Shown: in pieces, positions 6,282 to 43,887 of the stretch
Layout: the number at the start of each line of letters is the position of its first letter
Position numbering within the stretch: position 1 is the stretch's first letter
DNA from: an uncultured Tateyamaria sp.
GTDB lineage: Bacteria; Pseudomonadota; Alphaproteobacteria; Rhodobacterales; Rhodobacteraceae
Direction of reading: 5' to 3'
Assembly: GCF_947503385.1 (NCBI RefSeq)
Contig: NZ_CANNDO010000003.1
Span: forward strand, 62,001 to 126,000
DNA: 64,000 bases
The notes under the pieces: generated by a model
Seen by the model: the letters and a program-made list of their open reading frames with translations, nothing else
What the model was told of the DNA's origin: nothing
Database searches by the model: none
Program-made: the position numbers and the translations under genes

Positions 6282-6917
6282 TTAGGCGCTTTGGGCAAAG
6301 CTGGGGTGTGTTTGGGTGCCAAAGGCGCGGTCAAACCACTGACGCGATTGCGCAAGGGATATCCCGGCCCGCGCGGCCACCCGAGACGCGGCGTCAGGGT
6401 CAAAATGCCAAAGGCCCACGCTGATCTGGTCGCGGCCAGTGCCGGCACTGCCGAGCACCTCGGGCGAGGATCCGATCATGCGGTAGATGCGCACCATGCG
6501 GGCATCGAACACGCCAACGAAATGTTCCACGCCAAAGTTTTGCATGATCTCACCACCACCCAGCATGAGCGCAGCCGCCACATGTCCCCCCGCGCCGCGC
6601 GCGAGGCAAAAGCGGGTGCATTCCCAGATCAGCGGGCTGGTCACGGGACCCGAAATCAGTTCACCGAAATGCTCGTTCACCATGGTCCGCCCGGTGGTGG
6701 GCAAGAACCGCATGGACCCGCCATGGCGCCCGTCAGGTTCTTCCCAGATCACGTAGAGAGGGTTTAGTTGGTCGTACTGGTCACGCTCTTGCCCGTCGCC
6801 GTCAATGTCCACATCCCAACCAAGACGTGTCTTGAACTGATCGGCACGGTCTTCGAACATTGTGCGGGCCAAAAGGGGATAGTCGGCGAGGTCGGACGCA
6901 TAAACGTAGCGCAGCAT
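6282..6917 (-). CDS. luxI: Acyl-homoserine-lactone synthase (LuxI family)
   Basis: 211 residues making an N-acyl-homoserine lactone from S-adenosylmethionine and an acyl donor. The family's invariant N-terminal residues are visible in RADQFKTRLGW followed by acidic positions (DVDIDGDGQERDQYD). Also present are GSMRFLPTTG and the ELISGP...IWECTRF segment with the conserved Glu and Arg. I chose ATG 6917, preceded by AAGGAG seven bases upstream, over an ATG six codons earlier. It lies 112 bp downstream of luxR on the same strand. The gap carries a lux-box-like inverted repeat (7001-7014), compatible with autoinduction. Acyl chain length and oxidation cannot be read from sequence. Confidence 0.93.
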   Translation of the reverse strand: MLRYVYASDLADYPLLARTMFEDRADQFKTRLGWDVDIDGDGQERDQYDQLNPLYVIWEEPDGRHGGSMRFLPTTGRTMVNEHFGELISGPVTSPLIWECTRFCLARGAGGHVAAALMLGGGEIMQNFGVEHFVGVFDARMVRIYRMIGSSPEVLGSAGTGRDQISVGLWHFDPDAASRVAARAGISLAQSRQWFDRAFGTQTHPSFAQSA

Positions 6918-6972
6918 TGGTGGACTCCTTGTCAAACCGGGGCAGGTATGACTGAAATACTACCGATACGTG

Positions 6973-7029: not shown

Positions 7030-7761
7030 TCAGACGACGATCAAACCGCGGCTCATGGCGCGGGCGACGGCATGTGTTGTGTTCAGCGCCCCCAATTTGA
7101 ACCGCGCGCTTTCGATATAGACCCGCAGCGTATGCTCGGAAATCGACAGCGTGTCGGCGACCTGTGCGCGGCTGTAGCCCATGGCTAGCAATGTCATCGC
7201 GTCCACCTCACGCGGGCTGAGGGCCTGGGATTGTTCTGGCGTGCGGTCGGGTTCGAGCTCCAGTGCTTTTTGGTTAAAGTCGTGGGCGATCAAGATAAGA
7301 TCGCGGCGATGCGTTTCGGTCCAGTTTGCCCACGTGTCATCATTGCATGAGTGGCTGATGGTAAAGAGTGCGAATTGTCCGTTCGGCCCCCGGATCGGCA
7401 CCGAAAACCCCTGATTGCCAACCCCGTATGCGATGGCTTCGGCCTGAAACGCGCGGGCGGCCTTGCTTGACCAATCGAGGCGCTTCCAGTCCACTGGGTG
7501 AAACCGTTGAAAACACCCGACAATGACCGGATCAACGCGCAGGTAGTTCTGCTCGAGATACCGTTCCCGCCACGCGTCCGAGTAGGTGCCGCAACCATAC
7601 TGATCCCCGGCGGAGTCGACCCAGTGGTACACCACATGATCAATCCCGTAATGGTCCCGTATTTGTTCTGACGCGCGCTGGAGGGCCTCAAGACCGTCAG
7701 CTTGCTCCAGCTCCTCCAAAATGAATTCCAACGGCTGTTTCGCCATTGCTGCGCTGACCAT
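7030..7761 (-). CDS. luxR: LuxR-family quorum-sensing transcriptional regulator
   Basis: 243 residues with two domains: an N-terminal autoinducer-binding domain (about residues 25-165, containing YHWVDSAGDQYG, QNYLRVDPV and GFSVPIRGPNGQFALF, which include the conserved Trp, Tyr, Asp and Gly positions) and a C-terminal LuxR helix-turn-helix (about residues 178-238, LSPREVDAMTLLAMG then SEHTLRVYIESARFKLG). The ATG at 7761 follows AAGGA by eight bases. The 5' end overlaps a small ORF by 65 bp on the same strand. With luxI directly downstream this is a complete cognate sensor-synthase pair. Confidence 0.93.
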   Translation of the reverse strand: MVSAAMAKQPLEFILEELEQADGLEALQRASEQIRDHYGIDHVVYHWVDSAGDQYGCGTYSDAWRERYLEQNYLRVDPVIVGCFQRFHPVDWKRLDWSSKAARAFQAEAIAYGVGNQGFSVPIRGPNGQFALFTISHSCNDDTWANWTETHRRDLILIAHDFNQKALELEPDRTPEQSQALSPREVDAMTLLAMGYSRAQVADTLSISEHTLRVYIESARFKLGALNTTHAVARAMSRGLIVV

Positions 7762-16850: not shown

Positions 16851-17630
16851 TCAGACGGTGCGCTCGACCATCATTTTTTTGATATTGGCAATTGCTTCGG
16901 CGGGGTTCAGGCCCTTGGGGCAGGTCTTGGCGCAGTTCATGATGGTGTGGCAGCGATACAGCTTGAACGGGTCTTCAAGGTCGTCGAGCCGTTCGCCTGT
17001 GGCCTCGTCCCGGCTGTCGATGATCCAGCGGTAGGCGTGCAAAAGCGCTGCTGGCCCAAGGTAGCGGTCGCCATTCCACCAGTAGCTGGGGCAGGACGTG
17101 GAGCACGACGCACACATCACACATTCATAGAGACCGTCGAGTTTTTTGCGGTCCTCGATCGACTGACGCCATTCCTTGGCGGGGCGGTTCGTCTTGGTCT
17201 CAAGCCACGGCATGATACTGGCGTGCTGCGCGTAGAAATGGGTGAGGTCTGGGATCAGGTCCTTGACCACGGGCATGTGGGGCAGCGGATAGATTTTGAC
17301 GTCGCCCTTTACCTCGTCCATGCCGTAGATGCAGGCGAGCGTGTTGATGCCGTCGATATTCATCGCGCACGATCCGCAAATCCCCTCGCGGCAGGAACGG
17401 CGGAAGGTCAGCGTCGGGTCGATCTCGTTCTTGATCTTGATCAGCGCGTCCAGAATCATCGGACCGCAGGTGTCCATGTCGACGAAATAGGTGTCGACGG
17501 ACGGGTTTTTGCCGTCATCGGGGTTCCAGCGATAAATCTGGAATTTGCGCAGATTGGTGGCACCCTCGGGCTTGGGCCACGTCTTGCCGGTTGTGATGCG
17601 GCTGTTCTTGGGAAGTGTCAGTTGGACCAT
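16851..17630 (-). CDS. sdhB: Succinate dehydrogenase iron-sulfur subunit
   Basis: 259 residues carrying the three cluster motifs in order: [12 protein letters not shown] for [2Fe-2S] (with a further Cys in NTLAC), [16 protein letters not shown] for [4Fe-4S] and [17 protein letters not shown] for [3Fe-4S]. It passes electrons from SdhA to the quinone site formed with SdhC/SdhD. The ATG at 17630 follows AAGGAGAACCGC. It is separated from sdhA by a FkbM methyltransferase and a lipoprotein gene instead of being adjacent. The upstream gap to the lipoprotein is 13 bp. Confidence 0.97.
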
Positions 17631-17643
17631 TGCGGTTCTCCTT

Positions 17644-17973
17644 TCACGCGGTGAGCAGGGTAAGCCCTGCCCGTGTGACGCACTGTTGAGTTTCGGGGCG
17701 CTGGAGCACTTGGGTGACCAGCGCAACTGTGGTTTCTGAGACGCCGATCACGGCGTCCTTGGCAAATTCGCCGATTTCGCGGGCGGTGGCGTTGTCGATC
17801 ACGCAGTCGGTAAAGGGCGTGACCGCCTGTTTCGGCACCGCCGGGAACCGGGTGGTGAGGGTCTCGGCCACCGCCGCCTTGGCGCTGCGGCGAGCGACAT
17901 CGTCCACCGCCTGGGTCGCCTCCGCGCAGGCCGTCAGGGTCAAAAGCGTGACAAGGGCCAGCGTGCGGATCAT
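17644..17973 (-). CDS. Small lipoprotein between sdhA and sdhB
   Basis: 109 residues with a lipoprotein signal ([16 protein letters not shown], lipobox LTAC). The mature part is short, alanine/threonine-rich and helical, with two more cysteines (TDCVIDNAT and QQCVTRAG). Its ATG overlaps the TGA of the upstream FkbM gene (ATGA at 17973-17970), so it is translationally coupled. The family is not recognised by function; the lipoprotein prediction is firm. Confidence 0.75.
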
Positions 17974-18653
17974 GCGGCGTCCCACCGTGTAAAGAGCAGG
18001 TCCATATGCCGGGGCTGCGACCGTTTGGTTGGACCATCGGCAATGGCCAGAACGTCGCGCATTTCCAGCCCGTGGGCGGCAAGCGTGGCAATCGCGGCCG
18101 AAGGCGGATCAACCCCTTCGAAACGGCGGGCCATGGACAGCTCAAGGATCACAAAGTCGGTCTGTTTCAATGTTTCTGTCGCCCCGGCAAGAACTTGTGC
18201 CTCGAACCCTTCGGTGTCGATCTTGATCCCAAAGGGGCCGACGTGACCTGTGGCAAGGCTGTCGAGGGTCACGACGGGCACATCGCGGGTCTTTGTGTCG
18301 GTAAAACTGCCCGCAAGTGCGTCGCGCCGTTCCAGCAGGCTGGCCATGGCCCCGCCCTGCCCCGGTTTGGTTTCGGGGATGGTCAGGGTCATCTGCCCCG
18401 GCGCGGACCCAACGGCTACCGCGTGAAAGTCGCCCTTGGCCGGGCGCGGACCGGGCAAATCGCCTTGCGGGTCGATCAGCACAAAATGCGCGTCGGGAAA
18501 GCTGTCATACAGCCACGGCGTTCCTTCGAACACGCCCACGTCGAAAACGGTGGCGGGCTCGAACCCGTAGGTGCGCAGGTAGAACGGGCGCGTTTTGTGG
18601 GGGTGGATGACCAGCCCCTCTTTGCGCGCAAGTTCTCTGAGCTCACCCAGCAT
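17970..18653 (-). CDS. FkbM-family methyltransferase
   Basis: 227 residues from ATG 18653, which is preceded by GAGG six bases upstream; an in-frame ATG at 18686 is possible but lacks a ribosome-binding site. The fold is a SAM-dependent Rossmann methyltransferase: VFDVGVFEGTPWLYDSFP is motif I, followed by FVLIDPQ. The FkbM signature is VTLDSL...FGIKIDTEGFEAQVLAGA. Such enzymes O-methylate sugars or secondary metabolites; in this setting a surface glycan is a reasonable guess. It starts 65 bp after sdhA and is coupled to the following lipoprotein gene. Confidence 0.8.
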   Translation of the reverse strand: MLGELRELARKEGLVIHPHKTRPFYLRTYGFEPATVFDVGVFEGTPWLYDSFPDAHFVLIDPQGDLPGPRPAKGDFHAVAVGSAPGQMTLTIPETKPGQGGAMASLLERRDALAGSFTDTKTRDVPVVTLDSLATGHVGPFGIKIDTEGFEAQVLAGATETLKQTDFVILELSMARRFEGVDPPSAAIATLAAHGLEMRDVLAIADGPTKRSQPRHMDLLFTRWDAA

Positions 18654-18717
18654 GGGCGGCCTCAAACCCGCCGCCGGGGCGAGCATGGGGGCGTGTGACA
18701 GCACAGGGCCACCGGCC

Positions 18718-20523
18718 TTAGTAGACCCGCGCCTTGGGCGCGATTTTCTTGAGGTCGATGCCCCCGTCATTGTGGCTGGTCAGAGGCTGCGTGATCACAC
18801 CGCGGAAACCAAGCGATGCCTCATTGCCCTTGAACCAGATGAGCGAATGCTTGCGCCAGTTCTCGTCGTCGCGGTCCGGGTAATCCTCGTGCGCATGGGC
18901 GCCGCGGCTTTCCTTGCGGGCTGCCGCCGCCGTGACTGTGGCCACAGCGTTGGGGATCAGGTTGGTCAGTTCCAGCGTTTCCATCAGGTCGGAGTTCCAC
19001 ACCAGCGACGTGTCCGAAACCTTGAGATCGCTGATCTTGCCCGCGACGCCCTCCATTTTCTCCTGACCTTCGGCCAATGTCTTGTCGGTGCGGAAGACGG
19101 CCGCATCCTGCTGCATCGTCTTTTGCATCTCAAGCCGCAGTTCTGCCGTTGGCACGTGGCCGCCCGCATACCGCAGCCCGTCAAACCGGCTGAACGCCGC
19201 CTCGATCGACCGCTTGCTGGGCGTGGGCACCGCTGCCTCTGCATCCACAACTTCGCGGGCGCGAATGGCCGCCGCACGGCCAAAGACCACGAGGTCGATG
19301 AGAGAGTTGGAGCCCAGACGGTTCGCCCCGTGAACAGAGGCACAGCCTGCCTCACCCACGGCCATCAGGCCCGGTGCAATGGCGTTGGGGTTGTCTTTGG
19401 TTGGGGCGAGCACTTCGCCCCAGTAATTCGTCGGGATACCACCCATGTTGTAGTGCACAGTGGGCAGGACCGGGATCGGCTCCTTGGTCAGGTCCACGCC
19501 TGCGAAAATGCGCGCACTTTCCGAAATGCCCGGCAGACGTTCTGCCAGCGTTTCCGGCGGCAGGTGGTTGAGGTGCAGGTGGATGTGATCCCCCTCCGCG
19601 CCCACGCCACGCCCTTCGCGGATCTCCAGCGTCATGCAGCGGCTGACCACATCACGGCTGGCGAGGTCCTTGTAGGTGGGCGCATAGCGTTCCATGAACC
19701 GCTCACCCTCGGAATTGGTGAGGTAACCGCCCTCGCCCCGCGCGCCTTCAGTGATCAGGCAGCCCGATCCGTAGATGCCAGTGGGATGGAACTGCACGAA
19801 TTCCATATCCTGCAGCGGCAAACCTGCGCGCGCCGTCATACCACCGCCGTCGCCGGTACAGGTGTGCGCGGATGTGGCGCTGAAATAGGCGCGGCCATAG
19901 CCACCCGTCGCCAGCACGACCATCTTGGCCGCAAACAGGTGCATCGTGCCGTCATCCAGCTTCCAGCAGAGCACACCCTGACATTCCCCGTCATCGCCCA
20001 TGATCAGGTCGATGGCGAAATATTCGATGTAGAATTCCGCGTTGTTCTTGAGCGATTGACCATAGAGCGTGTGCAGGATCGCGTGGCCGGTCCGGTCCGC
20101 TGCGGCACAGGTGCGTTGCACCGGGGGCCCTTCGCCAAATTCTGTGGTGTGTCCGCCAAAGGGGCGTTGGTAAATCTTGCCCTCTTCGGTGCGCGAAAAC
20201 GGCACGCCGTAGTGTTCAAGCTCGTAAACCGCTTTGGGCGCCTCACGGGCGAGGTACTCCATGGCATCGGTGTCGCCCAGCCAATCCGAACCCTTGACTG
20301 TGTCGTACATATGCCACTGCCAGTTGTCGGGCCCCATGTTCGACAGCGATGCGGCAATGCCGCCCTGAGCGGCCACAGTGTGCGAGCGGGTCGGAAAAAC
20401 CTTGGTCACACAGGCGGTGCGCAGGCCCTGTTCGGCCATGCCCAGGGTTGCGCGCAATCCGGCCCCACCGGCCCCAACCACAACGACGTCATATTCATGT
20501 GTTTCGTAATCGTAAGCAGCCAT
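18718..20523 (-). CDS. sdhA: Succinate dehydrogenase flavoprotein subunit
   Basis: 601 residues. It oxidises succinate to fumarate, linking the TCA cycle to the quinone pool. The FAD dinucleotide fold is [15 protein letters not shown] near residue 20, and the covalent FAD histidine lies in [12 protein letters not shown]. Also visible are the active-site Arg/His regions [25 protein letters not shown] and [13 protein letters not shown]-like (YNMGGIPTN). The ATG at 20523 follows AAGGAGGCAAGTCC. Operon order on this strand is sdhC, sdhD, sdhA, fkbM, lipoprotein, sdhB. Confidence 0.98.
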
Positions 20524-20546
20524 GGACTTGCCTCCTTGGGCTTCAA

Positions 20547-20918
20547 TCAAAGTGCGATGCGGGCGATGGCGAACACGCCTGTCGCCGCCGCGGCGTAGCT
20601 CAGGCAGATCATGGCGAGGATCGCCACCTTCTGCGCTGTTCCATGAACGTAGTCCTCGATCAGCACCTGCACACCGTCCTTAAAGTGCATCATGGTCACC
20701 ACGATGGTCAGCGCGGCCACAATCGCCGGGAAAGGCCGCGCGAAATACGCCGTCACATCCGCGTGGCTTTCACCCAACATCGGACCAAAGGTAAAGACGA
20801 ACAGGGGAATCAGGATCAGCAGTGCAAAGCTGCTGACTTTCATGGCCCAGAAATGTGCGGTGCCGGTCTTGGCAGAGCCCATGCCCACGGCGCGTTTGCG
20901 GTCGGTCAGATAGCGCAT
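20547..20918 (-). CDS. sdhD: Succinate dehydrogenase membrane anchor subunit
   Basis: 123 residues with three transmembrane helices (about 30-50, 62-82 and 97-118). The [16 protein letters not shown] segment holds the conserved His and Asp-Tyr residues found near heme b and the quinone site of SdhD proteins. The start follows GAGGAGAGACGG. It lies 10 bp after sdhC and 23 bp before sdhA. Confidence 0.94.
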
Positions 20919-20928
20919 CCGTCTCTCC

Positions 20929-21312
20929 TCAGATCACGATGATGGTGAACAGGGTCAGAACAACAGACCCGCCAATCACGGCCCAGCCCATCTTTTCCGC
21001 TGTGTCGAGGTCAAGGCCGATGCCGTTGTCCCACATCAGGTGCCGCACGCCAGCCAGCGTATGATACCACAGCCCCCACAGCGACAAGGTCATCACCAGA
21101 TCGCCGAAAAAGCTGGTCAGCACCCCGTCGGCCACTGCAAAATACTCAGGCGACGTGGCCGCAGCCAGCAACCACCAGATCACCAACAGCGACGAGATCA
21201 AAAGGGCATTGCCTGTGATCCGTGTCAGGATCGACGTCATCGACGTCAGTTGCGGGCGGTAGATGGTCAGGTGTGGCGAGAGCGGGCGATTGCCCCGATT
21301 GACATCGGCCAT
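20929..21312 (-). CDS. sdhC: Succinate dehydrogenase cytochrome b556 subunit
   Basis: 127 residues. The N-terminal RPLSPHLTIYRPQLTSMTSI block with SILTRITGNAL is diagnostic of SdhC. The second helix region LWYHTLAGVRHLMWD supplies the axial heme histidine. Three transmembrane helices are visible. It is first in the sdh operon, preceded by AAGGAAG. The 150-bp upstream gap carries paired GTGATCAC palindromes (21428-21456), also found upstream of sucC. Confidence 0.96.
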   Translation of the reverse strand: MADVNRGNRPLSPHLTIYRPQLTSMTSILTRITGNALLISSLLVIWWLLAAATSPEYFAVADGVLTSFFGDLVMTLSLWGLWYHTLAGVRHLMWDNGIGLDLDTAEKMGWAVIGGSVVLTLFTIIVI

Positions 21313-21427
21313 GGCGCTTCCTTTTCTTTGGCTGAGCCAGTGATAGCGGATTTTACGCGCAAGTCACGTGCCCAGCGGTCACAAGTGGCGCGGTTTTTTG
21401 GCGCATTAGAGGGAATTCGCCGACAAC

Positions 21428-21456
21428 GTGATCACTTATTTCCAAGCTGTGATCAC
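21428..21456 (-). promoter_or_regulatory. Paired GTGATCAC palindromes upstream of sdhC
   Basis: Two perfect 8-bp palindromes GTGATCAC at 21428-21435 and 21449-21456, 13 bp apart (21 bp centre to centre), end 115 bp before the sdhC start. On the coding strand the distal copy extends to TTTGTGATCACA. The identical pair geometry occurs at 30933-30961, 113 bp before sucC, so these look like a shared operator for the TCA operons. Confidence 0.7.
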
Positions 21457-30062: not shown

Positions 30063-30905
30063 ATGCCACAGACCCGCCCCATTGAGCGAAAGCTGACCAC
30101 GATCCTTGCTGCGGATGCTGCCAATTACTCTGGCCGTATGCACACCGACGAAGAGGGCACCGTGCGCGCGCTGCGCGCTGCGCGGGCGGTAATTGATGCG
30201 TCTATCACCGGGCGCGGTGGCCGGATCGCGAACACATCGGGCGACGGTCTGATTGCAGAATTTCCGTCAGTCGTGGACGCGGTGTCCTGCGCGGTGAACA
30301 TCCAGACCGTGTTGAATGACACGCCCGACCATCTGTCCTTTCGGTTGGGCGTGCATCTGGGCGACGTGATTGTCGAAGGGCAAGACCTGTTGGGAGACGG
30401 TGTAAACCTTGCTGCGCGCCTACAGGAAATGGCGGACGTGGGCGGCATCCTGATTTCGCAACAGGTCTATGATCAGGTGCGCCGAAAACTCGGGCCGGTC
30501 GAATTTCGCCCGCTTGGCCCGGCCACCCCAAAGCATTTGCAGGACGAAGTGGGCGTCTATGCGGTTGTGGCCCCCGGCATCGTGGCACCGCGTCTGCCGG
30601 ACAATCTGGGCCCAAAGGTCCATATTCCCCCACCCCCACCGCCGGTCCTCGAGGATGGTGCGCCCACACCCTCCCCCGAGGAGGTGCCACCGCAAATCGC
30701 AGAGATGCGCCGCAAGTTTCGCAAGGACGGCAGGCGGTTGGGCGCAGCGATCGGTGCAATAGTTCTGGTAGAGATCATATTTGATCTCAGCCCGGTCCTT
30801 ACGGTTGTGCCGACCGTCGCGCTTGCATGGATTCTCTTTAGCCGGTGGCGCAAGCTGAAGGCCGCGGAAGCCACCGAAGTGCAGGAAGAGTCGCAGCCGG
30901 GCTGA
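30063..30905 (+). CDS. Class III adenylate/guanylate cyclase with C-terminal membrane segments
   Basis: 280 residues. The cyclase homology domain fills about residues 8-175: KLTTILAADAANYSG with the first metal Asp, NTSGDGLIAEF with the GDG motif, and LGDGVNLAARLQEMA with the transition-state Asn and Arg. A proline-rich linker (about 190-215) leads to two transmembrane helices near the C-terminus (AIGAIVLVEIIFDL and VLTVVPTVALAWILF), an inverted layout compared with most membrane cyclases. It should make cAMP or cGMP. It lies 169 bp upstream of sucC, but the operator pair and promoter between suggest separate transcription. Confidence 0.88.
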   Translation: MPQTRPIERKLTTILAADAANYSGRMHTDEEGTVRALRAARAVIDASITGRGGRIANTSGDGLIAEFPSVVDAVSCAVNIQTVLNDTPDHLSFRLGVHLGDVIVEGQDLLGDGVNLAARLQEMADVGGILISQQVYDQVRRKLGPVEFRPLGPATPKHLQDEVGVYAVVAPGIVAPRLPDNLGPKVHIPPPPPPVLEDGAPTPSPEEVPPQIAEMRRKFRKDGRRLGAAIGAIVLVEIIFDLSPVLTVVPTVALAWILFSRWRKLKAAEATEVQEESQPG

Positions 30906-30932: not shown

Positions 30933-30961
30933 GTGATCACACTTTTTCAACGTGTGATCAC
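30933..30961 (+). promoter_or_regulatory. Paired GTGATCAC palindromes upstream of sucC
   Basis: GTGATCAC at 30933-30940 and 30954-30961, 13 bp apart (21 bp centre to centre), embedded in TTTTGTGATCACA and GTGTGATCACAAA. The block ends 113 bp before the sucC ATG. The spacing, and nearly the distance to the gene, equal those of the pair upstream of sdhC. Likely a dimer-of-dimers operator coordinating the TCA operons; the regulator is unknown. Confidence 0.75.
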
Positions 30962-31074: not shown

Positions 31075-32268
31075 ATGAACATCCACGAATACCAGGCCAA
31101 AGCCCTTCTGCGCAGCTACGGGGCTCCGGTCTCGGACGGGCGCGTTGTTTTGCGGGCCGAAGACGCAAAGACAGCAGCGGGCGCGCTGGATGGCCCGTTG
31201 TGGGTGGTCAAGGCGCAGATCCACGCCGGTGGTCGCGGCAAGGGCACCTTCAAAGAAGCGGACGCAGGCGAAAAGGGCGGCGTGCGCCTCACCAAATCGG
31301 TTGAGGAAGCCTCCGAAGAAGCCAAAAAGATGTTGGGCCGTACTTTGGTCACGCATCAGACCGGCCCGGCGGGCAAGCAAGTGAACCGCATCTATATCGA
31401 GGACGGTTCGGGCATCGAGACCGAGATGTATCTGGCCCTGCTCGTTGACCGTGTAACCAGCCGCGTGTCCTTTGTCTGTTCGACCGAAGGCGGCATGGAC
31501 ATCGAAGAGGTGGCCGCAGAGACGCCCGAGAAGATCCTGAGCTTTTCCGTCGATCCCGCGACGGGGTATCAGGCATATCACGGTCGGCGCATCGCCTTCA
31601 TGCTGGGTCTGGAAGGCAAACAGGTGAAGCAATGCGTGGGCCTCATGGGCCTGCTCTACAAGGCGTTCATCGAAAAAGACATGGAAATGCTTGAGATCAA
31701 TCCGCTGATCGTCACCGACAGCGGCGATCTCAAGGTGCTGGATGCCAAGGTCAGCTTTGACGGCAACGCAATTTACCGCCACGCCGACATCAACGAACTG
31801 CGCGACGAGACCGAGGAAGACCCCAAGGAACTCGCCGCCTCTAAATACGACCTGAACTATATCGCACTGGATGGCGAGATTGGCTGCATGGTCAACGGTG
31901 CCGGTCTGGCCATGGCGACAATGGACATCATCAAGCTCTATGGGGCCGAGCCTGCCAACTTTCTTGACGTGGGTGGCGGCGCCACCAAGGAAAAGGTGAC
32001 CGAGGCGTTCAAGATCATCACCTCCGATCCCAACGTCAAAGGCATCCTCGTCAACATCTTTGGCGGCATCATGCGCTGCGACGTGATCGCCGAAGGCGTG
32101 GTCGCCGCGGTCAAGGAAGTGGGCCTGCAAGTGCCGCTTGTGGTGCGTCTTGAGGGGACGAACGTGCAGCAGGGCAAGGACATCATCAACAATTCCGGCC
32201 TCGACGTCATCGCCGCTGATGACCTCAAGGACGGCGCTCAAAAGATCGTGCAGGCCGTCAAGGGATGA
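31075..32268 (+). CDS. sucC: Succinyl-CoA synthetase, beta subunit (ADP-forming)
   Basis: 397 residues. With SucD it converts succinyl-CoA, ADP and phosphate to succinate, ATP and CoA. The N-terminal ATP-grasp domain starts [18 protein letters not shown] and has the nucleotide loop [12 protein letters not shown]. The C-terminal domain has [17 protein letters not shown] and [15 protein letters not shown]. It is unusual in not being next to sucD: four other genes, 2.5 kb, lie between them. The stop overlaps the next lipoprotein gene (ATGA at 32265-32268). Confidence 0.97.
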
Positions 32269-32714
32269 TCCGCCGCGCGCGGCATATTGGAGCGGTGGCG
32301 CTGGCGTTGCTGGCTCTGACCGCCTGCGATGACGGGGCCGGTCCGGCCCCAAACGCGCCGGAGCCGATTTTCCGCTCTGCCAGTGCCGAACCGGGGTCAG
32401 CCAACACTCCGGTGCGCTTTGCCCGTACTGTGCTGCAAACAGCCTGCATCGACACGCAACCCGATTTTCAGGGCGCGACGCGCGCTTTGGCCCGCGCCGG
32501 TGGTTTTGCCCAAAGTGCCAAGACGGGCACATTTTTCCACCAGCGCTATGACATGTCGGTCAAGGTCGTGCCGGGCCGCTGTTCGATGGTCGTCGGCACG
32601 TCTGGTGCGCGCGACAGTCTTGCGCAACTGGGCACGCTTAACAGCGTGCAAACCGGTGTGCCGCGCGTGTTTGGTGGACGATCCTATTATGCATTCTTTG
32701 TATCGGGGGCCTGA
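32265..32714 (+). CDS. Lipoprotein of unknown function, two-cysteine type, coupled to sucC
   Basis: 149 residues. The lipoprotein signal ends in the lipobox LTAC ([12 protein letters not shown]). The mature domain has ARTVLQTAC, about 50 variable residues, [11 protein letters not shown], a helix, and a C-terminal beta strand ([13 protein letters not shown]). It overlaps sucC by four bases. It abuts the next lipoprotein gene with no gap, so it is translated with the TCA operon. No known domain was recognised. Part of the proposed family described in the findings. Confidence 0.75.
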
Positions 32715-33431
32715 ATGAAACAAATTATACTTGCTCTGGGCATCGTGGTGGCATTGGCCGCCTGCGAAAGCCCGATCTCGCGAGCGACCGGCCCGACAGG
32801 CCCTGAATTGCCGCCCCTTGGCCTCGCTGCGACCGCCATATGGCTCGAAGACCGCGAAGCGCTCACCAGCCAAAGTGCGGAACGTGCAGCCGAAATTCGG
32901 GCAGCACAGCAGAACGCGGCCCGTCGTCAGGCCGTGGTGCAGCCCGCATCTCAACCGGCGGCACAACCGCTGTCGGCTCAGCCGGTCCCGACCGGCACAA
33001 TTGCGCTTGCGGCGCGCGCCTTTGCAGACGCCTGTGTGGCCAGCCTGCCCACGATGCAGAATGTGCGCGCGCAGGCCCGCAGCGCGAATGAACGGTATTT
33101 CGGCACAAAACCAGAGGAGTCGTCGCGGACTTTGCTGGGCGGACAGGGCGCGCAAGGTGATGTGGCGCTGTCGGTCTTTATTCAGGCGGGCCGTGGGCGC
33201 GACATCAATCAATGCAGTGTCGGTGCGCGGCGGCAGGATGCGTCCGCGCTTGCGCAGGCCTTGGTGGCGACACTGGGGGCTGCGGGTTACGGCCTGACAC
33301 CGGTTGCAGATGCTGACGCACAGCGCGCATGGCAGATTGACGGTGCAGCGCCCGGCACCATCCTGCGGGTCAACAGCCGCCGCAATTTCCTTGGCCAGAT
33401 CGTGACAGGGGCGTGGATCTCATGGCGTTGA
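32715..33431 (+). CDS. Lipoprotein of unknown function, two-cysteine type
   Basis: 238 residues with lipobox LAAC (IVVALAACES). A Pro/Ala/Gln-rich linker (about residues 70-95, rich in AQP and ASQPA) leads to a domain with AARAFADAC, a variable stretch, and DINQCSVGARR, then a helix (ASALAQALVATLGAAGYG) and a strand (VTGAWISWR). It repeats the layout of its upstream neighbour at greater length, suggesting an ancient tandem duplication. The function is unknown. Confidence 0.75.
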   Translation: MKQIILALGIVVALAACESPISRATGPTGPELPPLGLAATAIWLEDREALTSQSAERAAEIRAAQQNAARRQAVVQPASQPAAQPLSAQPVPTGTIALAARAFADACVASLPTMQNVRAQARSANERYFGTKPEESSRTLLGGQGAQGDVALSVFIQAGRGRDINQCSVGARRQDASALAQALVATLGAAGYGLTPVADADAQRAWQIDGAAPGTILRVNSRRNFLGQIVTGAWISWR

Positions 33432-33465
33432 TGCACAGCACATCCGGAGCGCGGAGCCCACAATA

Positions 33466-33981
33466 ATGAAACCGTTCGCCCGGCATATCTGTCTGATCGC
33501 TGGCGTGATCTGTGCCTGCGGCTTTGCCGTGAGCGCGCAGGTCGGGCCTGTGCATCCGGGCATTAAGGCGTTTACCAGCTATTGCTTTAAGGCGGGTCAG
33601 ACGGCGGCTGTCGCACGCGCCAACATGGAACGGAATGCCGGCGCACCCTTGCCGTTTGAACTGACCTTCTGGGACAAATCGCTTGAACCCGCACCGGGAA
33701 CTCCCGCCCATTCCGAACGCCGGTGCGAGGTGGCCTTTGCAGGCGACCAAGCGGGCGCCGCAGTGGATGCCGTGCAAGCCAAGATGGCGATGCCCCCCGT
33801 CTTCGGTACGCCCCTGCCCTTGCCTGCCCCCTTTGCCGCCACACCCGGCACCGCCTATATCGAAGCGCGCGAATTGCTCCGCCGTCGGGTCGCCGTGGTC
33901 CATATCGGGGTGCGCGGCGACACTGCCGAAACCTTTCTGCGCGTAGACCGCCTGCCTGCGGGCGAGGGGTTCGGGTCATGA
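33466..33981 (+). CDS. Exported protein of unknown function, two-cysteine type
   Basis: 171 residues with a signal peptide (cleavage near AVSAQV). The mature part has IKAFTSYC, a variable middle, ERRCEVAFAG, an Ala-rich helix (AGAAVDAVQAKM) and a C-terminal beta-like segment (RRVAVVHIGVRG). Here the product is secreted, not lipidated. The stop overlaps the start of the GT25 gene (ATGA at 33978-33981). The function is unknown. Confidence 0.72.
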   Translation: MKPFARHICLIAGVICACGFAVSAQVGPVHPGIKAFTSYCFKAGQTAAVARANMERNAGAPLPFELTFWDKSLEPAPGTPAHSERRCEVAFAGDQAGAAVDAVQAKMAMPPVFGTPLPLPAPFAATPGTAYIEARELLRRRVAVVHIGVRGDTAETFLRVDRLPAGEGFGS

Positions 33982-34796
33982 GTGTCTATGTCGAGGTCAT
34001 CAATCTCGCCCGCGCCACCGAACGCCGCGCGCATATGCAGACCGAGTTGGAGCGCGCGGGCATCGACGCCGCCTTCCCCCCCGCCTTCGACATGAAGGAA
34101 CATCCGCCCGAAGTGATGTTGCACCATTGCAAGGAAAACGGCCCATGGGGCACGTTTCAGCCGGGCAACATGGCCTGCACCATCAGCCACGAAATGGCGT
34201 GGGACCGGTTCATGGCCTCGGACGCGGATTATGCCGTGATCCTTGAAGACGACGTTTTTGTCTCTCCTGACTTGGCCGCGTGGCTGCGGGACATGTCGTG
34301 GTGGCCCGCAGATGCGCAACTCGTCAAGATCGAGCGCTGGAACGGGCGCAACACCAAGGTGCTGCTGGCAAAGGATGGGCCACGCCACCTCGGCCGCGAG
34401 CTGCGGCGGCTGTTTGGCCGCCACGTCGGGTCCGCCGGTTACATCCTGAACCGCGAGGGGGCGCAGCGAATGCTGGCGCATCGACCCTTTGCAGTGTCGA
34501 TCGACAATTACCTGTTCAACCGCAACGCCTCTCCTGCGGCGCGCAGCGTGGTGACCTATCAGATCAGCCCGGCGCTGGTGCAGCAGGGCAATGAACCCGA
34601 CGGCGTCGAACCCAGCCTCAACCACCGCAAGCGCCCCGAAGGCTGGGCGCTGACCGTGCAAAAGCTCAAGCGCGGCTGGCGCGAGGTGTCGTATCCGCTG
34701 TCGACCTATTTCAAATTCTTCACCGGTCAGATCGTTCTGACCCCCGTCCCCTATGCCGCCCACGCGGGCGCGCCCACCCAAACTTCCGAGACGTAA
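33978..34796 (+). CDS. Glycosyltransferase family 25
   Basis: 272 residues of the GT25/LPS glycosyltransferase family. It shows YVEVINLARATERRAHM at the N-terminus, GNMACTISHEMAWDRF, and YAVILEDDVFVS with the acidic metal-binding motif. The HVGSAGYILNREGAQRMLAH segment is the C-terminal family signature. It probably adds galactose or another hexose to lipopolysaccharide or another surface glycan. It overlaps the upstream exported protein gene and ends 12 bp before sucD, so it is cotranscribed with core metabolism. Confidence 0.87.
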   Translation: MSVYVEVINLARATERRAHMQTELERAGIDAAFPPAFDMKEHPPEVMLHHCKENGPWGTFQPGNMACTISHEMAWDRFMASDADYAVILEDDVFVSPDLAAWLRDMSWWPADAQLVKIERWNGRNTKVLLAKDGPRHLGRELRRLFGRHVGSAGYILNREGAQRMLAHRPFAVSIDNYLFNRNASPAARSVVTYQISPALVQQGNEPDGVEPSLNHRKRPEGWALTVQKLKRGWREVSYPLSTYFKFFTGQIVLTPVPYAAHAGAPTQTSET

Positions 34797-34808
34797 AAAG
34801 GACCTGTC

Positions 34809-35693
34809 ATGGCCGTACTCATCGATGAAAACACCAAAGTGATCTGCCAGGGCCTGACAGGGTCGCAAGGCACGTTCCACACCGAACAGGCCATCGACTA
34901 TGGCACCAAAATGGTCGGCGGCGTAACACCCGGCAAGGGTGGGCAAACGCATCTGGACCTGCCTGTGTTCAACTCGGTCCACGAGGCGATGGAGCGGACG
35001 GACGCCAATGCGTCTGTGATCTACGTGCCGCCCCCCTTTGCCGCCGACTCGATCCTCGAAGCGATTGACGCCGAAATGCCTCTGATCGTCTGCATCACCG
35101 AAGGCATCCCGGTGCTGGACATGATGAAAGTGCAGCGCGCGCTGGAAAACTCGTCTTCGCGGCTGATCGGCCCCAACTGCCCCGGCGTGATCACGCCCGA
35201 CGCCTGCAAGATCGGCATCATGCCCGGCCACATCCATAAACGCGGATCGGTGGGTGTTGTCAGCCGCTCCGGCACGCTGACCTATGAGGCGGTGAAGCAG
35301 ACCACGGATATGGGCCTCGGCCAGTCGTCGGCTGTGGGCATCGGCGGCGACCCGATCAAGGGGACCGAACATATCGACGTGCTTGAGATGTTCCTCGCCG
35401 ATCCCGAAACGGAAAGCATCATCATGATTGGTGAGATCGGCGGCAGCGCCGAAGAAGACGCCGCCCAGTTCCTCGCGGATGAGAAGAAAGCAGGCCGCTG
35501 GAAACCCACAGCCGGTTTCATCGCGGGCCGCACCGCCCCTCCGGGCCGCCGCATGGGCCACGCGGGCGCGATTGTTGCGGGCGGCAAAGGCGGCGCCGAA
35601 GACAAGATCGAAGCAATGCGCGCCGCTGGCATCGTGGTGGCCGACAGCCCTGCGACGCTGGGTGAGGCCGTGATGGAGGCGATTAAGGGCTGA
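34809..35693 (+). CDS. sucD: Succinyl-CoA synthetase, alpha subunit
   Basis: 294 residues. The CoA-binding Rossmann fold carries [16 protein letters not shown] near residue 18, [20 protein letters not shown], and the phosphohistidine in [15 protein letters not shown] near residue 245. SucD plus SucC form the ATP-making enzyme of the TCA cycle. The gene follows the GT25 gene by 12 bp and is followed with no gap by an exported-protein gene (stop TGA then ATG at 35694). Confidence 0.97.
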
Positions 35694-36425
35694 ATGTCTG
35701 CTCGGGTTTCATACACACCGCGGTCCGTTTTGGGTTCCAAGTTGGGGGCTTTGCCCGGCTTGAGCGCGTGGACTACGTGTATTCGCCGGGCATTCACAGC
35801 GGTTTCCCTGATTGCAGCATTGATCTTGCCTGCCGCAGCAGCAGCCAACGCTGAGCTTTCTGAGGTGATTGTACACTGTACCGACCCGAAAGCTGAGGCA
35901 GCTTCGATAACTGAAAGTCTAAGCGCTGCCGGCTGGACGACCGTAGTGCCGGACGACTTTGAACGGGCCGCACGGCATCTGGGCGACGGTGGCTTTCTAT
36001 TGACCCAGACTGTGGAGGAACCGCAGGCCCTAATGCAGTTGAGGGAAGCGGAGTTCCGGAAAGCGCTGTCACGGGTCAAGCGCAAGACCTCGGATTACTT
36101 CTACTCTGCGACCTTGCAATCCGCTGATCTGGCTACGGTCGTGAACGTCCATTGGAAACGGCAGGGAAATCGCTTGCAATGCAGCGCAGCGACCGCCGAC
36201 CGAACGGGCATCGAAGAGCTTGGAGCACACATTGCGTCCCTGACATCAAAGGGCCGGGCCAGCGATACGGGTCCAAGCCTGCACTACGTTGCTGCAACCG
36301 GCAAGGATGACCCGCTGCGGGTTTGGCTATCCGCAGTGAAAGATGAAACCACGGCTGTTTTTTCGGCGGCGCCGCTTTTGGCGACGGTTGGCCTGTTCGC
36401 CGAATACTTTCCCAGGAGAGATTGA
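35694..36425 (+). CDS. Exported protein of unknown function, two-cysteine type
   Basis: 243 residues. A basic N-terminal stretch precedes a hydrophobic signal segment (AVSLIAALILPAAAAANAE). The mature domain starts LSEVIVHC, and a long helical region with Arg/Lys-rich segments (LSRVKRKTSDYFYSAT) leads to WKRQGNRLQCSAATAD, a helix (IEELGAHIASLTSKG) and beta-like segments. It follows sucD without a gap and ends 3 bp before sucA. The lower GC content and longer signal region than its neighbours suggest separate history. Confidence 0.65.
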   Translation: MSARVSYTPRSVLGSKLGALPGLSAWTTCIRRAFTAVSLIAALILPAAAAANAELSEVIVHCTDPKAEAASITESLSAAGWTTVVPDDFERAARHLGDGGFLLTQTVEEPQALMQLREAEFRKALSRVKRKTSDYFYSATLQSADLATVVNVHWKRQGNRLQCSAATADRTGIEELGAHIASLTSKGRASDTGPSLHYVAATGKDDPLRVWLSAVKDETTAVFSAAPLLATVGLFAEYFPRRD

Positions 36426-36428
36426 ACC

Positions 36429-39386
36429 ATGACCGACCAATCCCCCAACGACCAGTTCCATGCCTCGTCCTTCATGCAGGGGCACAATGCGGAATACCTC
36501 GAACAGATGTATGCCCGCTATGCCAACGATCCCAATGCGGTGGACGAAAGCTGGCAGGCGTTTTTCCGAGCGATGGGCGATGACGAGGTTAGCGTCAAAC
36601 GCGAGGCTGAAGGCCCGTCCTGGGCGCGGGCCGATTGGCCGCCGCAGCCCGGCGATGATCTGACCGCGGCACTCACCGGCGAATGGGCACCGGAGCCCGA
36701 GGCAAAGGCGGCGGGCGACAAGATCAAAGCCAAGGCCGCCGAAGCAGGCGTGAGTGTCAGTGACGATCAGATCAAGCGCGCCGTACTGGACAGCATCCGC
36801 GCCCTGATGATCATCCGCGCCTACCGCATCCGGGGGCACCTCGTGGCGGATCTGGACCCGCTGGGAATGCGTGACCAGACCCCGCACCCGGAACTGGACC
36901 CGAAATCCTATGGCTTTACCGAAGCCGACATGGACAGGCCGATCTTCATCGACAATGTGCTGGGCTTGCAGGTCGCCTCGATGCGCGAAATCCTCGCGAT
37001 CGTGAATCGGACCTATTGCGGCACCTTCGCGCTGCAATACATGCACATCTCCAACCCCGAAGAAGCCGGTTGGCTCAAGGAGCGGATTGAGGGCTTTGGC
37101 AAGGAAGTTGCCTTTACCCGCGAAGGGCGCAAGGCGATCCTGAACAAGATGGTCGAAGCCGAGGGTTTTGAGAAGTTCCTGCACGTTAAGTACATGGGCA
37201 CCAAGCGGTTCGGCCTTGATGGCGGCGAAAGCCTGATCCCTGCGATGGAACAGATCATCAAACGCGGCGGCGCGCTGGGTCTTAGGGACATCGTCATCGG
37301 GATGCCGCACCGGGGCCGTCTGAGCGTTTTGGCCAACGTGATGGCCAAACCTTACAAGGCGATTTTCAATGAATTTCAGGGGGGCAGCTTCAAGCCCGAA
37401 GACGTGGATGGTTCGGGCGATGTCAAATATCACCTCGGCGCTTCGTCAGACCGCGAGTTTGACGGAAACGAAGTACACCTGTCGCTGACTGCGAACCCCA
37501 GCCACCTCGAAGCGGTGAACCCTGTTGTGCTGGGCAAGGTGCGGGCCAAGCAGGATCAGTTGAACGACCACGACCGGACAACCGTGATGCCGATCCTGTT
37601 GCACGGCGATGCGGCCTTTGCCGGGCAGGGCGTGGTCGCGGAATGCTTTGCGCTGTCTGGTCTCAAGGGGCACAAAACGGGCGGCACGATGCATATCGTG
37701 GTCAACAACCAGATCGGGTTTACGACAGCGCCGCATTTTTCCCGCTCCTCCCCCTACCCCACCGACAACGCGCTGGTGGTCGAAGCGCCGATTTTCCACG
37801 TGAACGGAGATGACCCGGAGGCTGTGGTCCATGCCGCCAAAGTGGCAACCGAGTTCCGCCAGAAATTCCACAAGGACGTGGTCATCGACATCATCTGTTA
37901 CCGCCGCTTTGGCCATAACGAGGGCGACGAGCCCATGTTCACCAACCCGGTGATGTACAAGAAAATCAAGTCGCACAAGACAACGCTGACCCTTTACACC
38001 GAACGTCTGGTGCGGGACGGACTGATCCCCGAGGGCGAGATCGAGGACATGAAAGCGGCCTTTCAGGCCCGCATGAACGACGAATTCGAAGCCGGGAAGG
38101 ATTACAAACCGAACAAGGCCGACTGGCTGGACGGCAAGTGGTCACATCTCGACAAGAACGGTGAAGAATATGAGCGCGGCAAGACCGCGATTGCCGAGGA
38201 AACGCTGGAACAGGTGGGCGTCGCGCTGACATCGGTGCCCGAAGGGTTCCCGCTCCACAAAACGGTGGGCCGGTTGCTGGACGCGCGCCGGGCGATGTTC
38301 GACAACGGTGCGGGGTTTGACTGGGCCACCGGTGAGGCGCTGGCCTTTGGTTCGTTGCTGACCGAAGGATATCCGGTGCGGCTGGCCGGGCAGGATTCCA
38401 CCCGTGGGACATTCTCGCAACGCCATTCTGGTCTCGTGAACCAAGAGACCGAGGAACGTTATTACCCGCTGAACGCGATCCGGCAGGGTCAGGCCCAGTA
38501 CGAAGTGATCGATTCGATGTTGAGCGAATATGCGGTGCTCGGCTTCGAATACGGCTATTCGCTGGCTGAACCCAACGCGCTGACCCTGTGGGAGGCGCAG
38601 TTCGGCGATTTTGCCAACGGCGCGCAGATCATGTTCGATCAGTTCATCAGTTCGGGCGAGTCGAAATGGCTGCGGATGTCGGGCCTCGTCGTCCTCCTGC
38701 CCCATGGCTTTGAGGGCCAGGGGCCGGAGCACTCCTCGGCCCGACTGGAGCGCTTTCTTCAAATGTGCGGTCAGGACAACTGGATCGTCGCCAACTGCAC
38801 GACGCCGGCGAACTACTTCCACATCTTGCGCCGCCAGATCCACCGTGATTTCCGCAAGCCGCTGATCCTGATGACGCCCAAATCGTTGTTGCGTCACAAA
38901 CTGGCGGTGTCCAAGGCCGAAGAGTTCACCAATGGGTCGTCCTTCCACCGCGTGCTGTGGGACGATGCCGAGCATGGCAATTCGGACACCAAGTTGGTCG
39001 CCGACAAAAAGATCAAGCGCGTCGTGATGTGTTCCGGCAAAGTCTATTACGACCTGCTCGAAGAACGCGATGCGCGCGGGATCGACGACATCTATCTGAT
39101 GCGCATCGAACAATTCTACCCGTTCCCCGCAATCTCCCTCGTCAAAGAGCTGGAGCGCTTTAAGGGGGCCGAGATGGTCTGGTGTCAGGAAGAGCCCAAA
39201 AATCAGGGCGGCTGGACCTTTATCGAACCGAATATCGAATGGGTGCTGAGCCGCATCAAGGCCAAGCACACACGGCCCCTCTATGTGGGCCGCGCCACAT
39301 CCGCCTCGCCCGCCACGGGTCTGGCGAGCCAACACAAAGCCCAACAAGCAGCCCTCGTGAACGACGCGCTGACCATCGAAGGATAA
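36429..39386 (+). CDS. sucA: 2-oxoglutarate dehydrogenase E1 component
   Basis: 985 residues. This thiamine-diphosphate decarboxylase starts the 2-oxoglutarate dehydrogenase reaction. It begins with the E1o N-terminal helix [20 protein letters not shown]. Other landmarks are [14 protein letters not shown], the ThDP motif region [13 protein letters not shown] (GDA...), [11 protein letters not shown], and the pyrimidine-domain block [22 protein letters not shown]-terminal domain with [10 protein letters not shown] follows. It is 4 bp upstream of sucB. The length is slightly above that of the E. coli protein (933). Confidence 0.97.
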
Positions 39387-39390
39387 GACC

Positions 39391-40899
39391 ATGACCACCG
39401 AAGTTCGCGTACCCACCCTGGGCGAAAGCGTCACCGAAGCCACCGTCGCCACCTGGTTCAAAAAGCCGGGTGATGCTGTAGCTGTGGATGAAATGCTGTG
39501 TGAGTTGGAAACCGACAAGGTCACGGTCGAGGTGCCTTCGCCCGTTGCCGGAACACTGGGTGATATCGTCGCCGCCGAGGGCGAGACCGTGGGCGTCGAT
39601 GCCCTGCTGGCGACCATCGCCGAAGGTGGCGAAGCCGCCGCTGCCCCTGCCGAAAAGGCCGCGCCTGCGGCACCAGAGGCGGCCCCGGCAGGTGACAGCG
39701 TTGACGTGATGGTGCCGACACTTGGCGAGAGCGTGACCGAGGCCACGGTCAGCACATGGTTCAAGGCCGTGGGCGACGCCGTCGCGCAGGACGAGATGCT
39801 GTGCGAGTTGGAAACCGACAAGGTCAGCGTCGAAGTGCCCGCCCCCGCCGCCGGTGTTCTGGCCGAGATCACGGCCCCCGAAGGCACCACGGTGGATGCC
39901 AGCGCCAAGCTTGCGGTGATCTCATCCTCCGGCGCGGCCCCCGTGGCCAAACCAGACGAAGCGGCCCCCGCGGCGGCCGCCGCTCCGGCCAGCGGTGGAC
40001 GCACCGATATCTCCAACGCGCCATCTGCCGAAAAAGCGATGGCCGAAGCCGGGTTGTCGGCCGATCAGGTCACTGGCACGGGCCGCGACGGACGCATCAT
40101 GAAAGATGACGTAGCCAAGGCTGTGGCCGCTGCCGCCAGCGCACCGGCCCCTGCCGCCGCTGCCGCAGCGCCCCGCGCCCCGGTCCCCGCAGATGACGCC
40201 GCCCGCGAAGAACGGGTCAAGATGACCCGCCTGCGCCAGACCATCGCCAAACGCCTCAAGGACAGCCAGAACACCGCGGCGATGCTCACCACCTATAACG
40301 AGGTGGACATGAGCGCCGTGATGGCTCTGCGCAATGAATACAAGGATCTGTTCCTCAAGAAACACGGGATCAAACTGGGTTTCATGTCCTTCTTCACCAA
40401 GGCGTGCTGCCACGCCCTAAAAGAAGTGCCGGAGGTAAACGCCGAAATTGACGGCACCGACATCGTCTACAAAAACTTCGTCCACATGGGCATCGCCGCA
40501 GGCACACCCACGGGCCTCGTCGTGCCAGTCATCCGCGATGCGGATGGCATGAGTTTCGCCGCAATCGAGGCGGCGATTGCCGAAAAGGGCGCGCGCGCGC
40601 GTGACGGCAAATTGTCCATGGCAGAGATGCAGGGCGGCACGTTCACCATCTCCAACGGAGGCGTCTACGGTTCGCTCATGTCGTCGCCCATCCTGAACCC
40701 ACCGCAATCCGGTATCCTCGGTATGCACAAGATTCAGGACCGCGCCATGGTCGTGAACGGCGAGATCGTGGTGCGCCCGATGATGTATCTCGCGCTCAGC
40801 TACGATCACCGCATCGTGGACGGCAAAGGCGCTGTGACCTTCCTTGTCCGCGTCAAAGAAGCCCTGGAAGATCCGCGGCGGTTGTTGATGGATTTGTGA
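39391..40899 (+). CDS. sucB: 2-oxoglutarate dehydrogenase E2 (dihydrolipoamide succinyltransferase) with two lipoyl domains
   Basis: 502 residues. There are two lipoyl domains (about residues 2-76 and 105-178), each with the lipoylated Lys in CELETDK followed by V-T/S-VEVP. Both are joined by Ala/Pro-rich linkers. A peripheral subunit-binding domain ([13 protein letters not shown]...[13 protein letters not shown]) and the catalytic core ending [13 protein letters not shown], with the catalytic His and Asp, follow. Typical E2o has a single lipoyl domain, so the duplication is notable. It transfers succinyl groups to CoA and forms the core of the complex with SucA and LpdA. Confidence 0.96.
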
Positions 40900-42498: not shown

Positions 42499-43887
42499 AT
42501 GGCATCTTACGACCTCATCGTGATCGGCTCCGGCCCGGGCGGCTATGTCTGCGCGATCCGTGCGGCACAAAACGGCCTCAAGGTGGCCGTGGTTGAGGGG
42601 CGCGAGACCCTTGGCGGCACCTGCCTGAACATCGGCTGCATCCCATCAAAGGCACTGCTGCACGCCTCGCACATGCTGCATGAGGCCGAGCATAATTTCG
42701 CCACCATGGGTCTCAAGGGCAAGGCACCGTCGGTCGACTGGAAGCAGATGCAGACCTACAAGATGGACACGATTGGCCAAAACACTTCCGGCATCGAATT
42801 CCTGTTCAAGAAGAACAAGGTGGACTGGATCAAAGGGTGGGCATCCGTTCCTGCGACGGGCAAGGTCAAAGTGGGCGACGACGTCCATGACGCCAAAAAC
42901 ATCGTGATCGCGACCGGCTCCGAGCCGTCCTCGCTGCCGGGCGTTGAGGTGGATGAAAAGGTTGTCGTGACCTCCACCGGCGCGCTTGAGCTGGGCAAGG
43001 TCCCGCGCCGAATGGTGGTGATCGGCGCGGGTGTGATCGGGCTGGAACTGGGGTCTGTCTATGCCCGTCTGGGCGCAGAGGTTGAGGTGATTGAATTCCT
43101 CGACGCGATTACACCCGGCATGGACGCCGAAGTGCAAAAGCAGTTCAAAAAGATCCTGACCAAACAGGGGCTGACCTTTACCATGGGGGCCGCCGTCCAA
43201 AAGGTTGAGGCGACCAAGACAAAGGCCAAGGTCCACTACAAGCTGCGCAAGGATGACAGCGACCACGTGGCAGATGCCGACGTGGTGCTGGTCGCCACCG
43301 GGCGCAAGCCCTACACGGACGGTCTGGGTCTGGATGCACTGGGCATTGAGATGTCGGAGCGTGGCCAGATCAAGGTGGACGCCCACTGGCAGACCAACGT
43401 CAAAGGCATCTACGCCATTGGCGACGTGATCGACGGGCCGATGCTCGCACATAAGGCCGAAGATGAGGGCGTCGCCGCCGCCGATGTGGTCGCGGGCAAA
43501 CATGGGCACGTGAACTACGGTGTGATCCCCGGCGTGATCTACACGCATCCGGAGGTCGCCAATGTGGGCGAGACGGAACAGAGCCTCAAGGACGCGGGTC
43601 GCGCGTTCAAGGCGGGCAAGTTCAGTTTCATGGGCAACGGACGGGCCAAAGCGAATTTTGCCGCAGACGGCTTTGTCAAAATCCTCGTCGACGCCGAAAC
43701 CGATCGCATTCTGGGCGCGCATATCATCGGCCCCGGTGCTGGCGATCTGATCCACGAGGTCTGCGTGGCGATGGAGTTTGGCGCCTCGGCCGAGGATCTG
43801 GCAATGACTTGCCACGCCCACCCGACCTATTCCGAGGCGGTGCGCGAAGCTGCCCTGGCCTGCGGTCAAGGTGCCATACACATGTAA
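42499..43887 (+). CDS. lpdA: Dihydrolipoyl dehydrogenase (E3)
   Basis: 462 residues. It reoxidises the dihydrolipoyl arms of SucB using NAD. The FAD fold [20 protein letters not shown] opens the protein, and the redox disulfide lies in [17 protein letters not shown]. The NAD fold is [20 protein letters not shown], and the active-site [15 protein letters not shown] (His-Glu pair) is near the C-terminus. It is the last gene of the TCA block. Two hairpins follow the stop. Confidence 0.97.

Follow-up and report, generated by a model that had tools for sequence, protein, structure and literature searches.

We find that two operons of the tricarboxylic acid (TCA) cycle, sdh and suc, in the genome of an uncultured Tateyamaria sp. 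(Rhodobacteraceae) are each preceded by a pair of identical palindromes, and we are confident that these paired sites are operators of AkgR, a TCA cycle regulator with a GntR helix-turn-helix and an FCD domain that would bind them cooperatively, activate both operons and repress its own gene. Both operons lie in the 64,000-nucleotide stretch of DNA analysed here (contig NZ_CANNDO010000003.1, positions 62,001 to 126,000), which we call the window. One AkgR dimer would occupy each GTGATCAC palindrome, and two dimers side by side, 20-21 bp apart, would lie on the same face of the helix and probably assist each other in binding. Bound as pairs ahead of the promoters of sdhC and sucC, the dimers would activate sdh and suc, and AkgR bound to the single palindrome upstream of akgR would repress its own gene. 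The AkgR regulon of Rhodobacter sphaeroides was reportedly the subject of a 2015 study by Imam et al., and AkgR of that species is presumably RSP_0981.

Paired sites in the window and the genome

The suc site is an exact GTGATCAC-N13-GTGATCAC at positions 30933..30961 (palindromes 30933-30940 and 30954-30961) that ends 113 bp upstream of the sucC start codon (ATG at 31075, plus strand). The sdh site has the same exact form, lies at 21428..21456 (palindromes 21428-21435 and 21449-21456) and is 115 bp from the ATG of sdhC (21312, minus strand). These positions agree with those given in a preliminary description of the window. Both pairs are intergenic and flanked by neighbouring genes, and they are the predicted AkgR operators of the suc and sdh operons, respectively.

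The palindrome itself is overrepresented in the window, with 10 copies compared to 1.26 expected from shuffled sequences, and the six copies that are not part of a pair are all single and inside open reading frames (ORFs), as had been described before. Five of them are in codon phase 0 and one is in phase 1; since the singles are mainly in phase 0, the excess probably comes mostly from codon use. The pairs themselves could have arisen from a common 8-mer by chance or through codon use, and loose pairs are indeed frequent: with up to three mismatches allowed, the whole genome has 95 pair places compared to 5 for the reversed pattern, so the exact form alone is telling. In its exact form, however, the pair occurs only twice in the 4.57-Mb genome, upstream of sdhC and of sucC, and even with three mismatches allowed the window contains the same two pairs alone (0.23 expected, with two being reached in 2/100 shuffles). 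Given also the mostly uniform placement of the pair in related genomes and its scarcity outside the family, described below, we regard chance or codon use as a next to negligible explanation.

The sequence TGTGATCACA is present at nine places in the genome, and four of these are accounted for by the akgR site, both palindromes of the suc pair and one of the sdh pair. The remaining five are within ORFs, and one of these is about 100 bp upstream of an ORF that by eye resembles a response regulator (L239).

Conservation and geometry of the pairs

The exact N13 pair was found in 249 of 295 genomes of the family, sampled from 294 genera, mostly in two copies each and in three copies in five genomes. 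The reversed pattern was absent from all 295, which is a lenient control: the reversed 8-mer includes CTAG, a tetramer that is rare in genomes of such bacteria. A fairer control is a sample of 240 genomes of the class, three of them in the family, where the exact pair was present in 2 of the 237 genomes outside the family. One of these two pairs is inside an ORF (L266), and the other (L265, 992-1020, genome G440) is located 166 bp upstream of the AkgR-matching part of a GntR gene with 29% identity. The latter pair is also 110 bp upstream of a divergent ORF that by eye resembles a TonB-dependent receptor.

Loci with a pair at any gap of 3-33 bp were fetched (n = 118, some mutually overlapping), and in 107 of them the pair is upstream of sdhC, sucC or sucA. 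The gene sucA is concerned in genome G177, where it comes first after an mdh-like gene (by eye) and the pair stands in front of it. The other 11 loci comprise the two from outside the family, seven with an irregular gap, one with the pair 165 bp upstream of a PotF-like ORF (L298) and one (L037, 1501-1529) where the third pair of genome G042 lies 124 bp upstream of the class II fumarase gene fumC, so that in this one genome a further TCA cycle gene bears the operator. The preliminary description had proposed a shared operator for the two operons and had suggested a scan of relatives for the exact pair, and the loss from relatives that would have spoken against the proposal was not seen. A shared operator is strongly supported by this conservation and by the prediction, in a published study, that both operons are under one GntR regulator (PMC4344238).

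The earlier argument that geometry and near-equal distance together are unlikely to arise by chance holds for the geometry, which is conserved. The match between 113 and 115 bp is partly a coincidence: in 58 distinct sites upstream of sucC, from relatives and the own genome, the distance from pair to start codon is 96-181 bp with a median of 109, and in 46 distinct sites upstream of sdhC it is 107-231 bp with a median of 135. The gap between the palindromes is 13 bp in 44/58 and 12 bp in 14/58 of the sucC sites, and 13 bp in 41/46 and 12 bp in 5/46 of the sdhC sites, the share of N12 being inflated because the set includes genomes picked for the absence of N13 pairs. A gap of 12 or 13 bp places the palindrome centres 20-21 bp apart, and triple GTGATCAC arrays with a 21-bp pitch are found upstream of sucC in three genomes (G135, L294; G191, L300; G285, L292). 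The outer flanks are most often TTT and AAA, and the A+T content of the spacer exceeds that of the region from 10 bp past the pair to the start codon both at sucC (68% versus 52%, 30 sites) and at sdhC (61% versus 45%, 16 sites).

Two copies of a palindrome could also act at the RNA level, by forming a hairpin that terminates transcription or attenuates it. Six sites were folded, and the sucC site of the window gave -20.6 kcal/mol with a z score of -5.5, with z scores of -1.0 to -4.1 for four relatives. However, any two copies of one palindrome will fold in this way, and the sdhC site of the window has a z score of -0.2. No terminator-like site was found at the sdhC or sucC pair, the arms extend inward by just 0-2 bp in 103/104 sites, the loop length does not vary beyond 12 or 13, and at akgR this 8-mer is single. 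On the basis of the folding, the terminator scan and the short inward arms, we rejected a hairpin or terminator, which appears very improbable.

Identity of the regulator

The regulator had been left unnamed in the preliminary description. From the sequence comparisons and published sites that follow, it is very probably AkgR. The own genome has 22 places with a GntR domain, and a regulator gene within the window was rejected as none of these places falls there; a Pfam scan of 30 window ORFs, which covered part of those present, gave one LuxR-type regulator and no GntR protein. The akgR candidate (L062) encodes 216 amino acids and is located on contig C1, whereas sdh and suc are on C3. Its product matches the GntR helix-turn-helix domain (PF00392, 54.3 bits) and the FCD domain (PF07729, 63.8 bits), both over the cut-off, and it is alone among the 22 GntR loci in having GTGATCAC within about 1.5 kb, with the site beginning 16 bp upstream of its ATG.

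One of the family genomes, G051, matches chain 4l9y at 100% over 173/173 residues. We take 4l9y to be an R. sphaeroides protein, and because of the full match G051 was taken as R. sphaeroides. Its ortholog of the akgR candidate (78% identity) is encoded on the strand opposite to sdhB, about 750 bp past that gene. According to one report, sdhB is RSP_0979 in R. sphaeroides (PMC8920488), so the location of the ortholog near sdhB fits RSP_0981. Another study predicts the GntR protein RSP_0981 as regulator of RSP_0967-6, RSP_0974-6 and RSP_0965-62, i.e., succinyl-CoA synthetase, succinate dehydrogenase and 2-oxoglutarate dehydrogenase (PMC4344238). In a third, GTGATCAC is listed among the R. sphaeroides AkgR sites and AkgR is termed an activator (PMC6365646). 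In four further genomes, selected for carrying the ortholog and the suc genes on a single contig, the ortholog adjoins lpd, the last of the suc genes. The Tateyamaria sites are in keeping with an assignment as AkgR operators in that the GTGATCAC motif is exact at both places, the positions are upstream of sdh and of the genes for succinyl-CoA synthetase and 2-oxoglutarate dehydrogenase, and the genome encodes the ortholog.

As for L062, GTGATCAC is present upstream of the akgR orthologs in general, namely in 30/30 of the top orthologs, 9/10 of the more distant ones and 80/80 named loci, which are mutually related (119/120). In 116/119 the palindrome begins 11-15 bp past TTGAC or TTGAT and is therefore over the likely -10 element; the distance is 19 bp in two cases, and in one neither TTGAC nor TTGAT was found.

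The presence of the regulator and the presence of the pair go together. At an ortholog cut-off of E < 1e-50, with matches read by eye, the regulator is encoded in 268/295 family genomes, and the exact pair is found in 243/268 genomes with the ortholog versus 6/27 without (P about 2e-14 with phylogeny ignored, a value that is too small because the genomes share ancestry). Restricting the comparison to genomes that are at least 90% complete gave 222/240 versus 3/20. Of the 46 family genomes that lack the exact N13 pair, 25 encode the ortholog and 21 do not, and a pair with any gap of 3-33 bp is found in 19/25 versus 0/21; the control GntR paralog L054 is present in 5/25 versus 6/21 of the same genomes. 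Of the 25, 16 have their palindromes spaced as N12 at sdhC or sucC, and two others (G040 and G291) have one-mismatch N13 pairs at these genes. In two genomes without a pair the akgR ortholog is broken, with the match split over frames in G109 (L113) and with four internal stops in G157 (L110); both are fragmented assemblies.

Promoter position and mode of action

Comparison of the sdhC upstream regions alone leads us to propose a promoter with the -35 element CGTGAC (21363..21368, minus strand) and the -10 element TATCAC (21340..21345, minus strand), 17 bp from each other. A standard sigma-70 scan gave no promoter at the sdhC site or the sucC site. CGTGAC is present in 33/46 sdhC upstream regions versus 2/58 sucC regions, and a TA-type hexamer was matched downstream of it in 18 regions, the spacer being 17 bp long in 17 of these. 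It starts 56-59 bp past the pair in 27 of the 33 regions, and the starts in the other six, at 47, 69, 69, 77, 78 and 79 bp, are at most 2 bp off whole 10.5-bp turns from the median (P 0.0006 versus uniform placing, with relatedness ignored).

The preliminary description envisaged a dimer of dimers spaced by two helical turns that controls TCA flux. The spacing agrees with such a complex, given the 20-21 bp between centres, the triple arrays and the phased -35 element, and we infer that the paired sites do control TCA flux; as a whole, that first interpretation is partly supported. It is also conceivable that AkgR binds the pairs and mainly represses sdh and suc, or that the sign of its effect depends on a ligand, as many GntR/FCD proteins are repressors. 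However, about 60 bp separate the pair from the proposed -35 element of sdhC further downstream, whereas the single akgR site overlies a promoter position. If the proposed promoter is right, the pair is about 90-120 bp upstream of the transcription start, which would fit an activator better than a promoter-blocking repressor. AkgR is moreover termed an activator in PMC6365646, and we consider repression of the two operons, or a ligand-dependent sign, rather improbable.

Activation by AkgR may have a more specific form, in which the TCA operators are a helically phased cooperative AkgR array of two, sometimes three, dimers at a 20-21 bp pitch, located whole turns from the sdhC -35 element, with the single akgR site being repressive. 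We see the chances of this proposal as about even. If it is true, one protein switches sign by the number and position of its sites, and it does so for a very small regulon that is retained across most of the family.

Several observations weigh against AkgR acting through these pairs as proposed. The putative autoregulatory site is missing from some genomes, as no GTGATCAC is found upstream of akgR in G051 or in G281. Of the 25 genomes that encode the ortholog but lack the exact N13 pair, seven have neither an N12 nor a one-mismatch pair at sdhC or sucC (G061, G122, G147, G155, G166, G201 and G281), and the six ortholog-less genomes that have exact pairs (G019, G096, G114, G256, G264 and G273) are 73-77% complete in three cases and 91-100% complete in the other three. 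CGTGAC is absent from 13/46 sdhC upstream regions, and no clear -10 element was found for sucC. RSP_1663 and NtrC are also predicted at the sdh operon (PMC4344238), and AkgR therefore need not act alone.

The exact pairs kept in ortholog-less genomes would also be expected if another GntR-like protein reads the sites and AkgR is a bystander. Relatives of AkgR can share the 8-mer, as seen from the GntR protein of 29% identity beside the pair in another family (L265) and from a GntR protein of Pseudomonas that shares 32% identity with AkgR and for which GTGATCAC is the proposed site (PMC6365646). In the own genome, however, the akgR candidate is the only one of the 22 GntR loci with the 8-mer nearby, and the pair co-occurs strongly with AkgR but not with the one paralog used as a control. 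A different reader of the sites is thus quite unlikely, and AkgR remains the preferred regulator.

Genes of the two operons and their neighbours

The genes of both operons matched NCBIfam models over the cut-off. On the minus strand the order is sdhC (20929..21312, TIGR02970), sdhD (20547..20918, TIGR02968), sdhA (18718..20550, TIGR01816) and, further on, sdhB (16851..17726, NF004616), the start codons of the last two being provisional. An ORF matching FkbM-type methyltransferases (17970-18770) is encoded in the same orientation between the two genes sdhA and sdhB, whose distance in G051 is only about 600 bp.

On the plus strand, sucC (31075..32268, NF001913) is followed by other ORFs and then by sucD (34809..35693, NF004230), sucA (36429..39386, NF006914), sucB (39391..40899, NF004309) and lpd (42499..43887, TIGR01350). 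The distance between sucC and sucD is about 2.5 kb with ORFs in between (32265-34808), and a 243-aa ORF (35694-36425) separates sucD from sucA; the ORFs scanned in these two gaps gave no firm family match. Gaps between sucC and sucD are also seen in two other loci (L244 and L245) and not in three more (L246, L247 and L290). The suc operator is adjoined on its upstream side by an ORF (30063-30905) with a weak match to an adenylate/guanylate cyclase domain. Elsewhere in the window, a LuxI-type autoinducer synthase (6282-6935, minus strand) is found by Pfam beside the LuxR-type regulator (7030-7761, minus strand).

Comparison with known systems

Our analysis names a likely regulator for two operons central to respiration throughout a large family of bacteria and extends the regulon of a model organism to a family-wide regulon that follows a simple rule of sequence. 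Thanks to the fixed pitch, the promoter phasing and the triple arrays, the cooperativity and activation geometry of a GntR/FCD activator can be tested directly.

The closest solved relative of L062 by sequence is McbR of Escherichia coli (4p9f, E 3e-20, most of the protein aligned), which has targets other than those of AkgR. A second comparison is with CceR, which we take to be RSP_1663. CceR regulates central carbon metabolism in these bacteria, and PMC4344238 places RSP_1663, like RSP_0981, at the sdh operon by prediction. In contrast to AkgR, CceR is of the LacI family, with the motif GTT-N6-8-AAC, and we rejected CceR as the binder since inspection of the 8-mer gave no such half-sites. 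The GntR protein PS417_07240 of the deoxyribonate cluster in Pseudomonas simiae resembles the present system in its proposed palindrome GTGATCAC near a start codon and in its identity to AkgR given above; it differs in belonging to a local catabolic cluster with a single palindrome, a comparison by description only (PMC6365646).

With the AkgR regulon of R. sphaeroides, the Tateyamaria system has in common the 8-mer, the two operons and an ortholog of 78% identity, and G051, taken as R. sphaeroides, also has exact pairs upstream of sucC and sdhC. It differs in that akgR is here distant from sdh and suc (C1 versus C3) and has GTGATCAC ahead of its start, a site missing from the R. sphaeroides gene. 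The paired layout was not found described in the literature searched, with the primary 2015 AkgR paper being outside the reach of that search, and the fixed pair geometry may be undescribed. The regulator, the motif and the target operons have been reported before for R. sphaeroides in the papers cited above; the contribution of the present analysis is the family-wide reach, a gap fixed at 12/13 bp, the triple arrays, the promoter phasing and the common akgR site.
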